Shown piece after piece: positions 14,083-20,167 of a stretch of 64,000 nt of DNA. The notes beneath the pieces were generated by a model. The model made no database searches, was not told where the DNA came from, and worked only from the letters and a program-made list of their open reading frames with translations. The stretch lies in NCBI GenBank assembly GCA_947176505.1, contig CAMWQW010000012.1:62001-126000 (forward strand). The letters run 5' to 3'. The stretch comes from an uncultured Lachnospiraceae bacterium. Lineage in GTDB: Bacteria > Bacillota > Clostridia > Lachnospirales > Lachnospiraceae. Both the position numbers and the translations under genes were made by a program. How positions within the stretch are numbered: the stretch's first letter is position 1; every line of letters starts with the position of its first letter.

Positions 14083-16161
14083 CTACAGCGTAAAGCGCCG
14101 CATCGCATCGTCAAGTTTCTCCGCCTGACTCTTAAGAGCTTCCGCATCGTCATTGAGTTCACTTAAAAATCCTACCTGCTCTGCAATGCTTGCCGTAACC
14201 TCCACGGTCGCTGCGCTGGCATTGTCCGTAGTAGAAGAAACTCCCTGTATCGTATCGAGCACTTTATCCTTATCTTCCACAAGACCCCCCATCTGTTCAA
14301 CAATCTGCTCAAGCTTCTCCACAAGATTTTGCACATAATCATGTATCTCATGGAAGACGGTAACCGTCTCATCAAGCGCATCCATCTGCGACTTCACATT
14401 CTCTTCTGTCCGTACGGCAGATTCCGTGGCGGTCCTTGTCGTTGCCTCAATAGACTCTATAATCTTCTTAATTTCATTGCCTGCCGTCATGGACTGCTCC
14501 GCCAGTTTACCTATGGACTCCGCAACTACAGCGAACCCTCTCCCACTTTCTCCTGCTCTTGCCGCTTCGATGCCTGCATTGAGTGACAAAAGATTTGTTC
14601 GTTCCGCGATACTGTTAATCGTGTCTATAATCGTCTTAATATTACCACTTTGTGAACCGACATCCGCAACGTTATCCACAAGTATCTGTGTGATGTCCGT
14701 TGTTGCATGGGCTGTCGTTTTAAGCATATCCACCATAGCAGTTCCCTTCTCAACTCTCGCTATGGTACTATCCGCCATTGTTCCCATTATCCCAGCCGTT
14801 TCGGATATATGATTAATCTTCTCACCAAATTCTGCCATCATCCGATACCCGGTATCCGCATCTTGTGCCTGCTTTATTACTTCGGTCTCCACATCGCTCA
14901 CTGCCGTATTAACTTCTCTCATGGATGACAGAATCCTGTCCGTCGTCTCAGAAACCTGCCCCGCCGACCTTCCTACATCGCCGCTGAACTTCTGCACCTC
15001 CGCAATCAGTTCCCTCATGGAACTAATCATCTTGGCAATACTGTTGGAAACATGTCCGAACTCATCCTGACGGTTCGTTGCCAGAGACACCGTAAAATCT
15101 CCTTCCGATGCCACTTTCATAGAACGGGATATCTTATCCAGCGTACGCCTGATGCTGTTTGACAGAATCATACCGGTCAGGATTGCTACGAGTGATGCCA
15201 TAATCACAAACAGAATCGTTTCATTTCTGAGGTCTTTCATTTCCTCAATAATGCTTGATTCCGGAATCAATGCGCATATCTTCATACCCGTCTCACCAAC
15301 CGGTGCATAAAGATAGAGATACTGTTTCTTATTAAATGTGACATAGTCAGACATATATACATCTTCTTCCAAGGAAGCCTGATAGAAAGCCTGTCCTTTA
15401 TAAATTGTACCGTAAGAAGGTTCTCCGTATTTCATATGGATTTCCCTTCCGTCAGCTGTTATAAGCGAAACATAACTGCCCTTTCCGAAATCCACTCTGC
15501 CGAGCGCCTCCTGTACAATACTCCTCTTAATATCAATAATCAGAAATCCTTTACCGGTAGACAATCTTCTCATGAAGCTGATTCCATATTCGTTCGTGTC
15601 GGTTCCCGTTGCCGTATCAATAAAAAGATGTTCTCCAATCCACATTCCTTTGAATGTAGGATCTTCAAACGGCTGCCCCTCCTGTTTCTGGAAATCATCA
15701 TAGGCGTTTTCATCAAAAGCAAGTCTTCTGACAGACTCTTTGGTCGTTGAAGACACCGACCTGCCTGCCGCCGCAAAGGCGTGTACATTTGCAACATACT
15801 TCGTCGAAGACGTCATTTTAAGTACCGTTGTCTTCATTGCATTATACGATGTAGACTCTTTATTCTGGTTACTGCTCATTGCGTTTAATCCATAATAATC
15901 TTTCACCGCATCAGTGACAAGCATATCAGTGGCGTTCGTTTCAACATTCGATGTCAGCAGATTAAAATATTCCGCCACAGACATCACCGTACTTCCAGCC
16001 GACTCCTCATACTTACTCACAGCATTTTTGGAAGCTGTATGATAGCAAACAATACCGAGCATCACCATCATGATGATCGGTATCAGAAATGCAAACATCA
16101 ATTTGTAGATAATTTTGATGTCCCCTATACTTTTTCTTTTGTGTCCCTTACTTCTACTCAT
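14083..16161 (-). CDS. Methyl-accepting chemotaxis protein with periplasmic-type Cache sensor
   Basis: A 692-residue chemoreceptor. Membrane helix 1 is at about residues 19-42, an extracellular double-Cache-like sensor at about 45-310, membrane helix 2 at about 313-333, HAMP at about 334-390, and the coiled-coil signalling domain after that. The invariant hairpin tip ([20 protein letters not shown], residues 519-538) is intact. It has no C-terminal CheR/CheB pentapeptide, usual for Firmicutes. Ligand unknown. It lies between the decarboxylase operon and a carboxypeptidase gene and may be monocistronic. Confidence 0.95.
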
Positions 16162-17718: not shown

Positions 17719-18096
17719 TCAATCCCAGCTTCCCGCTTCTTCTTCTGAAAGCGCCCTCTCTCCACACACAGGGCATAACATGCCGCCTAAGTCCGTAATA
17801 AGCTGTGTGACACCGCCGCAGCCCGGACATCTTCCCATATACTCTGTCCCCCTGTCCGGAAACTTCAATATCGGAACACTTACTATACTATTGCATTCTC
17901 TACAGACTGAACAATGGTATGCAAAGTCAAATACAGGAAATTCTTCCGTTCCAATCTGCTCCGTAATCTCTCTGCCCGTCTCTTCCGGAAATTCCGAAAC
18001 CACATCTTCCAGACATGCGTGCATGAGTCCGCATCCTATCCTGCACTGCCACTCTCTTAGACAAGCGCTGCAGGTTATTCTATTGATTCTTCCCAT
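17719..18096 (-). CDS. Small cysteine-rich zinc-ribbon protein of unknown function
   Basis: A 125-residue protein not recognised as a named family. It has three or four knuckle pairs: C-x2-C (ITCSACLREWQCRIGCG), C-x2-C (YHCSVCREC), C-x2-C (GRCPGCGG) and C-x2-C (MLCPVCGE), with an acidic middle. Ten cysteines in a soluble protein suggest two zinc ribbons, as in nucleic-acid-binding or protein-interaction modules. AGGAG lies 9 bases before ATG 18096, and the gene starts 29 bases after the metallopeptidase-flagellin stop, so it is probably in the same transcript. A 144-codon frame on the opposite strand is judged a shadow. Confidence 0.7.
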   Translation of the reverse strand: MGRINRITCSACLREWQCRIGCGLMHACLEDVVSEFPEETGREITEQIGTEEFPVFDFAYHCSVCRECNSIVSVPILKFPDRGTEYMGRCPGCGGVTQLITDLGGMLCPVCGERALSEEEAGSWD

Positions 18097-18125: not shown

Positions 18126-20030
18126 TTATCCGAGGAGACTGAGTATCATCTCTGAGTGCTGGTTTGCCTGCGATAATACGGAAGCCCCCGCCTGCATCAG
18201 AATCTGATTGTTAGAATAGAGAACCATTTCTTCCGCAATATCCGTGTCTCTGATTCTGGCTTCCGCCGCAGTCGTATTCTCCATGATATTATTCAGATTA
18301 TTGATTGTATGTTCCAAACGGTTCTGCACTGCACCGTAATCACTTCTCACATTACTGACATATTCGATTGCCGCCTTAATCGCATCAATCGCCATATCGG
18401 CATCATCAGTCGTTTTCACATTTGTATCCGATAAGCCGAGAGCGTGTGTGCTCATCTGATAAAGGCTTAAATCAATATGCTGTCCCGCATCGGCACCCAC
18501 CTGTAAAGCAATCATTTTGCTTCCCGAGACATCCCCTATAGGTCTAGACGGCGTATTTCCGCCTCCGTTCCCGCCACTACTGCTTCCTCCGACGGTTCCG
18601 TCAAGGACGCCGCTCACCTTGAGCGAACTCGTGATGACCGACCCTGCACCGCCTAAAGAATTATAGGTCAGCTTACGCACAAATTCGAGCGCACCGCCGC
18701 TGCCGGAAGTAATGCGGCTTGTAAGCGTCGACGCCGACAGTCCTGTATGCTTCTGAATCGCCGCGTTTAACGAACTGCCGTTAATCAAGTCGGCAAAAAT
18801 TTTATCCATACCGGCAGCAATATTGTCGCTTGTCACATCACCGCCGCCATTTGCAAGCCATCCTGCATAAGCCGCCGCCAGATATCCGTGTCCGTATGGT
18901 CTGTTAGCCGGCGTATACTTCTTCAAATACGCCTTCATATTTGCATCCTGACTGGAATCATCTTCGTCTGTCAGATTCTTGGCATAGGCAATCAGCGTAT
19001 TGTTCCAATTGGTAGGGAACCCGCCGCCTGCAAGCTGCGCCGTTCCTTCCGTAAACCACTCCGGAAATTTTGTGCTGCTTCCATTTCTGCCGCTCATACC
19101 GTCCGTCATGGAATACTGCATAAAAGTATGCATCAGCTCATGCGCAATCGTAGACTGGAGCACTTCGGCTCTGTCTCCGGTTCCCTGCGCATCCGCCAGC
19201 GTAAAATCCTGATTATCAACTCTAAGCTCTAAAACCTTTGGTCTGCCGCCGGACTTACTGAACGTGAAATAAGCCTGCGCCAGCGTTTTATCCTTTCCGT
19301 CAATCTTCTGTACCTTGACCGCAAGGTTTAATGTCACACTGCCGATATCATTTTTGATAGAGGGAAATGCATCTATAATCTGTTGCGCCGCCTTCGGTAT
19401 CAAATCGGTCGCTAGCAGATTTGCCAGAGCACCGCCTGACGGAGTCGGGTTGACTGCCGCACGTCCCATCGCTCCGGCTGCTCGCTCTGTCGCTCCATCC
19501 ACACTCAGCAAACTGCTGTCTGACGGATTCACGGAAAACGTTCCGTCTGACAGATTGTATGTCAAATCATAATAATAGATTTCCGACTGCATCGCTGACG
19601 GTGTAAGTCCGTCCTCCGGAAACAATCGAATCTCATTGAAAACCGTATTCTCCGCTGTCTTATCAATTTCCTTCTTAATCTGCTGTACTTCCAAATCAAT
19701 CAATGCCCTGTCGGCATCCGTCAATGTACCCGTCGCCGCCTTCACAGAAAGCTCATTTGCACGATGCAGCATATCGTGCACTTCATTAAGCGCGCCTTCC
19801 GCCGTCTGAACCATCGAGATACCGTCCTGCGCATTGTTCGATGCCTGTGTCAGTCCACGAATCTGCCTGCGCATACGCTCAGAAATAGCCAGACCGGCTG
19901 CATCATCAGCCGCCCTGTTAATCCTGTAACCGGACGATAATTTTTCCGTACTCTTTGCATTTTTCTTAGAAACCGTACCAAATTGTCTTTCGGCATTCCA
20001 TGCCTGTATGTTGGTCTTTACAGAAAGCAT
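18126..20030 (-). CDS. Flagellin with inserted metallopeptidase domain (flagellinolysin type)
   Basis: A 634-residue flagellin. Residues 1-140 form the N-terminal D0/D1 helices (MLSVKTNIQAWNAERQ, SSGYRINRAADDAAGLAISE, ANELSVKAATGTLTD) and about 515-634 the C-terminal D1/D0 part, ending ASVLSQANQHSEMILSLLG. Between them, instead of a short surface domain, lies an insert of about 370 residues with a gluzincin zinc site: H297-E-L-M-H301 (19128-19142) and E328 in EWFTEGTAQ (19047-19049). A Ser/Gly-rich linker (residues 482-492) closes it. This matches flagellinolysins, shown in other bacteria to build filaments with protease activity. Both halves of the flagellin core look intact, so polymerisation is expected. 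The substrate here is unknown. Confidence 0.95.
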   Translation of the reverse strand: MLSVKTNIQAWNAERQFGTVSKKNAKSTEKLSSGYRINRAADDAAGLAISERMRRQIRGLTQASNNAQDGISMVQTAEGALNEVHDMLHRANELSVKAATGTLTDADRALIDLEVQQIKKEIDKTAENTVFNEIRLFPEDGLTPSAMQSEIYYYDLTYNLSDGTFSVNPSDSSLLSVDGATERAAGAMGRAAVNPTPSGGALANLLATDLIPKAAQQIIDAFPSIKNDIGSVTLNLAVKVQKIDGKDKTLAQAYFTFSKSGGRPKVLELRVDNQDFTLADAQGTGDRAEVLQSTIAHELMHTFMQYSMTDGMSGRNGSSTKFPEWFTEGTAQLAGGGFPTNWNNTLIAYAKNLTDEDDSSQDANMKAYLKKYTPANRPYGHGYLAAAYAGWLANGGGDVTSDNIAAGMDKIFADLINGSSLNAAIQKHTGLSASTLTSRITSGSGGALEFVRKLTYNSLGGAGSVITSSLKVSGVLDGTVGGSSSGGNGGGNTPSRPIGDVSGSKMIALQVGADAGQHIDLSLYQMSTHALGLSDTNVKTTDDADMAIDAIKAAIEYVSNVRSDYGAVQNRLEHTINNLNNIMENTTAAEARIRDTDIAEEMVLYSNNQILMQAGASVLSQANQHSEMILSLLG

Positions 20031-20139: not shown

Positions 20140-20167
20140 GTATCGTTATTTCATTACCTTTTCTTTA
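20140..20167 (-). promoter_or_regulatory. Candidate sigma-28 (SigD/FliA) promoter of the flagellin gene
   Basis: Minus strand: -35 TAAA (20164-20167), 16-base spacer, -10 AACGATAC (20140-20147) against consensus GCCGATAA. Late flagellar genes are normally read by this sigma factor. A leader of about 100 bases results. Confidence 0.5.

Follow-up and report, generated by a model that had tools for sequence, protein, structure and literature searches.

The window analysed here comprises 64,000 nucleotides (nt) of contig CAMWQW010000012.1 from an uncultured Lachnospiraceae bacterium. On its minus strand, an open reading frame (ORF) of 634 amino acids (aa) with an ATG start codon (18126..20030) encodes a flagellin with a gluzincin-type metallopeptidase insert, that is, a flagellinolysin. 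A second ORF (17719..18096), 29 nt downstream of the first and likewise on the minus strand, encodes a 125-aa protein with four CxxC pairs and a C-terminal GSWD, to which we refer as the partner. The initial annotation of the window, made from the sequence letters, had described the first of these genes and made no mention of the adjacent one, which is the less known part of the locus.

The flagellinolysin gene and its zinc site

The flagellin core is intact at both ends, as the initial annotation had it: Pfam places Flagellin_N (PF00669, E 1.9e-37) at residues 4-137 (19620..20021) and Flagellin_C (PF00700, E 2.8e-25) at residues 548-633 (18132..18389), all on the minus strand like the features that follow. 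In between, the metallopeptidase region (residues 202-466, 18633..19427, the span aligned in alignment A2) carries HELMH, the zinc-binding and catalytic motif, at residues 297-301 (19128..19142) and, within EWFTEG (324-329), E328 as the putative third zinc ligand (19047..19049); for HELMH and for the Glu, the annotation had given exactly these residue positions. It had further recognized the zinc-site layout of flagellinolysins, with which the profile and conservation data agree. The protein scores 226.8 bits with the NCBIfam flagellinolysin model NF033876, whose curated cut-off is 205. With this cut-off passed, both flagellin cores flanking the insert, and HExxH plus a distal Glu present, the gene is on these grounds a new member of the flagellinolysin family (NF033876, MEROPS M101) published in 2017.

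Among aligned relatives (alignment A5), W325, E328, G329 and G336 are invariant in all 67 chosen rows, and because of this invariance we do not regard the zinc-site pattern as a product of chance. H297, E298 and H301 are invariant as well, but by construction, since the rows were picked for HE..H; the choice of rows moreover favours intact sites, many of them having been retrieved with peptide patterns built on HExxH or on the E328 region. The same two patterns served to scan a named genome collection, so that its site counts are biased towards intact sites, too: HE..H is present at 77 of 79 loci, and the other two are a frame-broken gene with HGLMH (L186) and a gene of which a contig edge has cut off the start of the domain (L200). 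Both the invariant third-ligand Glu and the near-constant HE..H speak against the alternative of a flagellinolysin that has no catalytic activity here and contributes a bulky surface domain only, which we consider quite improbable. To our knowledge, no assay has been reported for a member of this clade, which leaves this alternative some room. The two enzymes described as tested in the main text of PMC7643111 are those of Clostridium haemolyticum and Hylemonella gracilis.

The annotation had suggested a structure prediction as a check, and the AlphaFold2 model of the protein (mean predicted local distance difference test, pLDDT, 83.9, with good local confidence in the insert) places both parts of the site in helices, HELMH within residues 288-307 and E328 within residues 324-335. 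Structure searches with this model matched filament structures, the flagellin core filling the result list, and when A2 was run as a profile against PDB sequences, no relative of the peptidase region came up (best E 1.6).

As a test for the insert, NF033876 at E 0.001 was rejected: it hits 57 of the 61 relatives as well as 4 of the 14 control genomes, for the most part by way of the flagellin ends. We therefore counted as flagellinolysins those NF033876 matches of at least 95 bits that cover the peptidase part; over the curated cut-off lie 13 of the 61 relatives and none of the 14 control genomes. Besides, six loci (L147, L150, L155, L160, L162, L168) contain a second HExxH in the N-terminal flagellin core, HEMLH at frame residues 85-100 in the context GAL.E.HEMLHR.NEL, which is most likely not a zinc site.

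Linkage to a zinc-ribbon gene

The predicted structure of the partner has a pLDDT of 92.1, and a structure search with it matched no solved fold. No Pfam or NCBIfam family scored over its cut-off with the window protein; the best weak matches among the 10 members of alignment A1 are DUF6510 (E 4e-4), CpXC (E 1e-3) and ECs_2282_CxxC (E 7.5e-5). Judged by eye only, the start of the protein holds no hydrophobic, signal-like stretch. Four CxxC pairs, with eight Cys in all, and a C-terminal WD recur in 63 of 63 rows of alignment A4, partly by construction, as these rows were preselected to begin with MG, to contain a CxxC there and to end in WD; unfiltered, the partner tails at the 54 adjacent loci of the genome collection all end in WD. 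Six partner matches were left out for an unclear MG start (L129, L146, L130, L178, L183, L124), of which L178 and L183 have three CxxC pairs only, while L165 was dropped from A4 for a doubtful start and L209 from A5 for a match on the other strand. We describe the partner as a zinc-ribbon protein outside the catalogued families and as a member of a flagellinolysin-linked family defined here.

In the genus sample (60 genomes, 37 plus 23 further), flagellinolysin is found in 21 (14/37 and 7/23); the other NF033876 matches listed for the 37-genome set reach at most 46 bits, against the 95-bit criterion. The partner profile matches all 21 flagellinolysin genomes, and a full-length partner is present in 2 of the 39 genomes without the enzyme, where it starts at a contig edge (G009) or lies beside a 191-aa flagellin remnant (G072); G033 holds a 63-aa partner remnant, and G062 and G079 yield marginal fragments (E 6e-4 and 7e-4). 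For the co-occurrence across the 60 genomes, Fisher's test gives 3e-14, a value uncorrected for the relatedness of these genomes, whose counts are not independent. At 22 of the 23 flagellinolysin copies, the partner gene is adjacent and on the same strand; in the exception (G077, L123), it lies on another contig, beside a 686-aa flagellin without a peptidase-profile match (L122).

Beyond the genus, 4 of the 295 genomes in an order sample contain the partner and 10 a flagellinolysin (with E 1e-20 as the upper limit), and all 4 partner genomes carry both genes adjacent. The named genome collection contributed 79 loci, taken from the best 80 of 109 matches. Of these, 66 are recorded as Lachnospiraceae, with rumen, cecum, cow and similar as sources where named; going by the source of its relatives, the window organism is probably a gut bacterium. 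Here, the partner is adjacent at 54 of the 79 loci (14 identical to a genus or order partner, 40 additional), and the Sporofaciens musculi locus L154 carries the pair. The remaining 25 comprise a partner behind a broken enzyme frame (L176), a contig edge (L180), the G077 gene again (L140), an enzyme without partner (L159) and 21 loci without an adjacent partner (L188-L192, L194-L199, L201-L203, L205-L211).

Of 61 distinct pairs, 52 have the partner gene downstream of the flagellinolysin gene and 9 have it upstream, always on the same strand (a condition of the count); the downstream arrangement corresponds to one clade and the upstream arrangement to another. The flanking genes fall into 34 clusters, an upper estimate given that short contigs and missing flanks produce singletons, and the largest cluster joins the window with nine others. 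In the window and at L050, L051, L052 and L054, the pair has scpB on one side and a D-Ala-D-Ala carboxypeptidase gene on the other, with different neighbours elsewhere; at L058-L060, where the partner is upstream, it lies near other flagellins and beside a large protein resembling, by eye, a DUF6240 protein of the window's genome. That the pair stays together across places and gene orders favours a functional relation over chance linkage. In the window, the second gene downstream of the pair encodes a methyl-accepting chemotaxis protein (14083-16161), which is kept in the nearest relative L052 and was not seen at this site in L050, L051, L054 and L055.

Several findings weigh against such a relation. 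In a phylum sample of 398 genomes, the partner profile matches 8, namely the window's own genome, one NAD-dependent deacetylase-like protein (G437) and 6 proteins that look like genuine relatives and end in WD. These 6 stem from outside the order, from genomes without flagellinolysin over cut-off (in G563, flagellin ends match with 31 and 27 bits), and their neighbours look metabolic or unrelated. Conversely, the profile finds nothing in the 7 flagellinolysin genomes of this sample outside the order, nor in 6 of the 10 flagellinolysin genomes of the order sample. In a tree of 80 rows, of which six were cut at the second HExxH and are 25% filled and five are long branches, 19 of 22 partnerless rows form one clade (support 97 in the Shimodaira-Hasegawa-like approximate likelihood ratio test, SH-aLRT) that includes Butyrivibrio and Pseudobutyrivibrio; the partnerless rows outside it are L061, L123 and L191. 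A second tree of 70 rows requires 3 changes for the three states; it excludes three long rows (L118, L191 and L211) and 7 rows, including L061, in which a stricter motif is missing. Shuffle tests on the trees make no correction for near-copies. Intact enzymes without an adjacent partner also occur in or near the partnered clade, these being L123 (= L140), L159, which is outside the tree and was placed by score, and perhaps L191, whose position is unsure. On the enzyme side, not all 21 genus genomes exceed 205 bits, as the HEMTH copies of the upstream-partner clade score 95-153 bits (144-153 bits for those in the set of 61 relatives) and thus below the NF033876 cut-off, and the peptidase fold went without confirmation by the structure searches, the core having filled their list. 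Lastly, an earlier run of distance comparisons, with six rows cut at the wrong motif, gave r 0.62 for the peptidase versus 0.70 for the core. In the later matrices of 47 clade A pairs, r is 0.73 for partner and peptidase, 0.67 for partner and N-core and 0.69 for peptidase and N-core; because all of these are high, they fail to show what the partner touches.

Given the partnerless clade and the 7 outside genomes without a partner match, the enzyme can do without the partner. Partner relatives without flagellinolysin and flagellinolysins without partner both occur, and on this account the partner belongs to a larger family of zinc ribbons and, within part of the order, was either recruited to the flagellinolysin gene or retained next to it. 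The same two distributions, along with the dependence of counts among related genomes, are what favours the view that this is an ordinary flagellinolysin and that linkage has carried the zinc-ribbon gene along as a passenger of unrelated function. We regard this as unlikely, as the pair is kept in two gene orders with differing flanking genes and as the full-length partners in 2 of the 39 enzyme-less genus genomes sit at a contig edge or beside a flagellin remnant. As a separate observation, three of the distant partner relatives (L219, L220 and L221, from G538, G485 and G563), all without flagellinolysin over cut-off, lie directly upstream of one gene type, which we take to be a DAHP synthase gene.

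A possible second case was encountered elsewhere in the phylum. In G651, both flagellinolysin copies are followed downstream by a gene (L238:7853-8167 and L239:5155-5469) for a 104-aa protein with three CxxC pairs, an MG start and a YD end, the two proteins being 77% identical. A single profile comparison with the partner alignment gave a probability of 94 and an E of 1.2e-7, mostly through cysteine-rich stretches. Pfam HypA, however, scores 30.3 with the first of them (cut-off 28.9), and because of this score over cut-off the G651 protein may be another kind of zinc ribbon. Among 9 genomes of its order, either gene was found in G651 only, and no such neighbour was seen at nine other distant flagellinolysin loci, of which about 1.5 kb or less per side was in view. 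The G651 pair thus hints at a wider rule, although one genome decides nothing.

Expression, filament and putative role of the partner

The upstream-region scan revealed a sigma-28-like promoter, TAAA-N16-AACGATA (20141..20167, minus strand), 5' of the flagellinolysin gene, starting 137 bases before its start codon. Such sites are present in 11 of 15 flagellinolysin upstream regions, as compared to a mean of 0.32 and a maximum of 3 in letter shuffles; the regions without one are those of L052, L055, L128 and L129. FlgM, the usual sigma-28 antagonist, is encoded in the window's genome.

With 4.17 Mb on 62 contigs, this genome yields 8 Flagellin_N matches in total. One of them, a 544-aa frame (L013), reads as FlgL, and besides the window gene there are six flagellins of 703, 1256, 380, 315, 315 and 256 aa. 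As candidates for a second enzymatic flagellin they were rejected, none of them holding HE..H, and a Pfam scan of the 703- and 1256-aa proteins returned flagellin domains alone. The initial annotation had advised looking for a second, normal flagellin, of which there are thus six, and had pictured the filament as a protease brush. The protease-flagellin identity behind this picture stands; as to the brush, a mixed filament is likelier than a pure one because of the six other flagellins. With these, the filament could probably be built without flagellinolysin. A part in breaking down mucus or matrix, which the annotation had envisaged, is hypothetical.

The 1256-aa flagellin (L010:7062-10832, G000:C34) is a giant in which Pfam shows flagellin end domains only, and the relatives L058 and L059 carry versions of 1285 and 1305 aa. 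Between flagellin genes, the same region encodes a 993-aa DUF6240 protein (PF19753; L010:10995-13976, G000:C34). It is this protein whose look-alikes adjoin the upstream-partner flagellinolysins of L058-L060, and it is possibly flagellum-related.

Taking these data together, we think that flagellinolysin and its zinc-ribbon partner probably form one module, albeit with some reservation. Sigma-28 would switch the flagellinolysin gene on with the late flagellar genes, and the protein would leave by the export channel of the flagellum in unfolded form, as flagellins do. Its two flagellin ends would polymerise into the filament alongside other flagellins, while the insert would fold outside and give rise to a zinc metallopeptidase on the filament surface. 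The partner would stay in the cytosol and bind flagellinolysin prior to export, acting either as a dedicated chaperone for export or folding delay, or as a guard that holds the protease inactive, two versions which are indistinguishable here. Of all this, the sequences show the identity of the gene, its conserved zinc site, the promoter-like sites and the linkage between both genes, whereas proteolytic activity, the mixed composition of the filament and each step in the partner's action are inferred.

A more specific proposal casts the zinc-ribbon protein as a dedicated, antidote-like cytosolic guard that would bind newly made flagellinolysin, prevent the insert from folding or from becoming active and deliver the protein to the export gate. 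We raise it tentatively and consider it rather doubtful; the pattern of gene decay leans that way. A broken enzyme frame lies beside a full-length partner at L056/L141, L120, L152, L176 and L186, whereas both genes are broken at L178 and L183, and in G033 the partner remnant is the sole profile match; the reverse state, an apparently intact enzyme lacking an adjacent partner, was seen at L123/L140, L159 and perhaps L191. Most of these decayed loci come from metagenome assemblies, in which some breaks may be assembly errors, and the pattern leans weakly towards a partner that is harmless alone.

Alternatively, the partner might regulate flagellinolysin production, e.g. as an RNA-binding zinc ribbon that limits translation until export opens, for which the FliW-CsrA control of flagellin offers a comparison. 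Generic zinc ribbons often bind nucleic acid, and the sub-threshold matches of the partner include ribbons of the nucleic-acid-binding type; besides, its gene precedes the flagellinolysin gene in one clade and follows it in the other, and all 61 pairs share a strand (as required). Yet no positive sign of such regulation emerged (a scan of the window with Rfam at gathering scores came back empty, and no further search for a conserved leader was made), and we deem a regulatory role distinctly unlikely.

Comparison with known systems

Flagellinolysins have been known as a family since 2017, and the main text of the founding report names the peptidase domain of clostridial collagenase (M9) as the closest homolog of their inserts (Eckhard et al. 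2017, PMC5595980). The H. gracilis enzyme is described as a calcium-dependent zinc metallopeptidase (PMC7643111). Neither main text (PMC5595980, PMC7643111) uses the term 'zinc ribbon', and neither a flagellinolysin/zinc-ribbon cassette nor an antidote-like partner was found in the literature searched, which did not extend to the gene-neighbour figure in the 2017 supplement. A co-inherited small partner provides a concrete handle, by way of flagellinolysin level, export and activity, on how a cell can produce many protease copies without harm to itself and pass them through a narrow channel. The pair would also serve as a two-gene marker by which proteolytic flagella could be recognized in Lachnospiraceae.

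Like the known flagellinolysins (MEROPS M101; C. haemolyticum, H. gracilis FlaMP), the window protein combines flagellin ends with a putative gluzincin insert, HExxH and a distal Glu, and there are other flagellins in its genome. A difference is the zinc-ribbon gene linked to its gene. With M9 collagenases, the insert shares HExxH plus the distal Glu, whereas these are secreted multidomain enzymes and not filament subunits. The partner, in turn, resembles generic bacterial zinc ribbons (FmdB, CpXC PF14353, DUF6510, HypA-like) in its small size and paired CxxC, with weak matches to them. If our reading is right, it would work like the flagellin chaperone FliS and the flagellin-binding regulator FliW, that is, as a cytosolic helper of one flagellin. 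In contrast to FliS and FliW, neither of which is among its listed Pfam matches (a direct comparison was not made), the partner is a zinc-ribbon protein. Thus, while the protease-flagellin type as such is known, what appears to be new is its two-gene cassette with an uncatalogued zinc-ribbon protein in this group of Lachnospiraceae.
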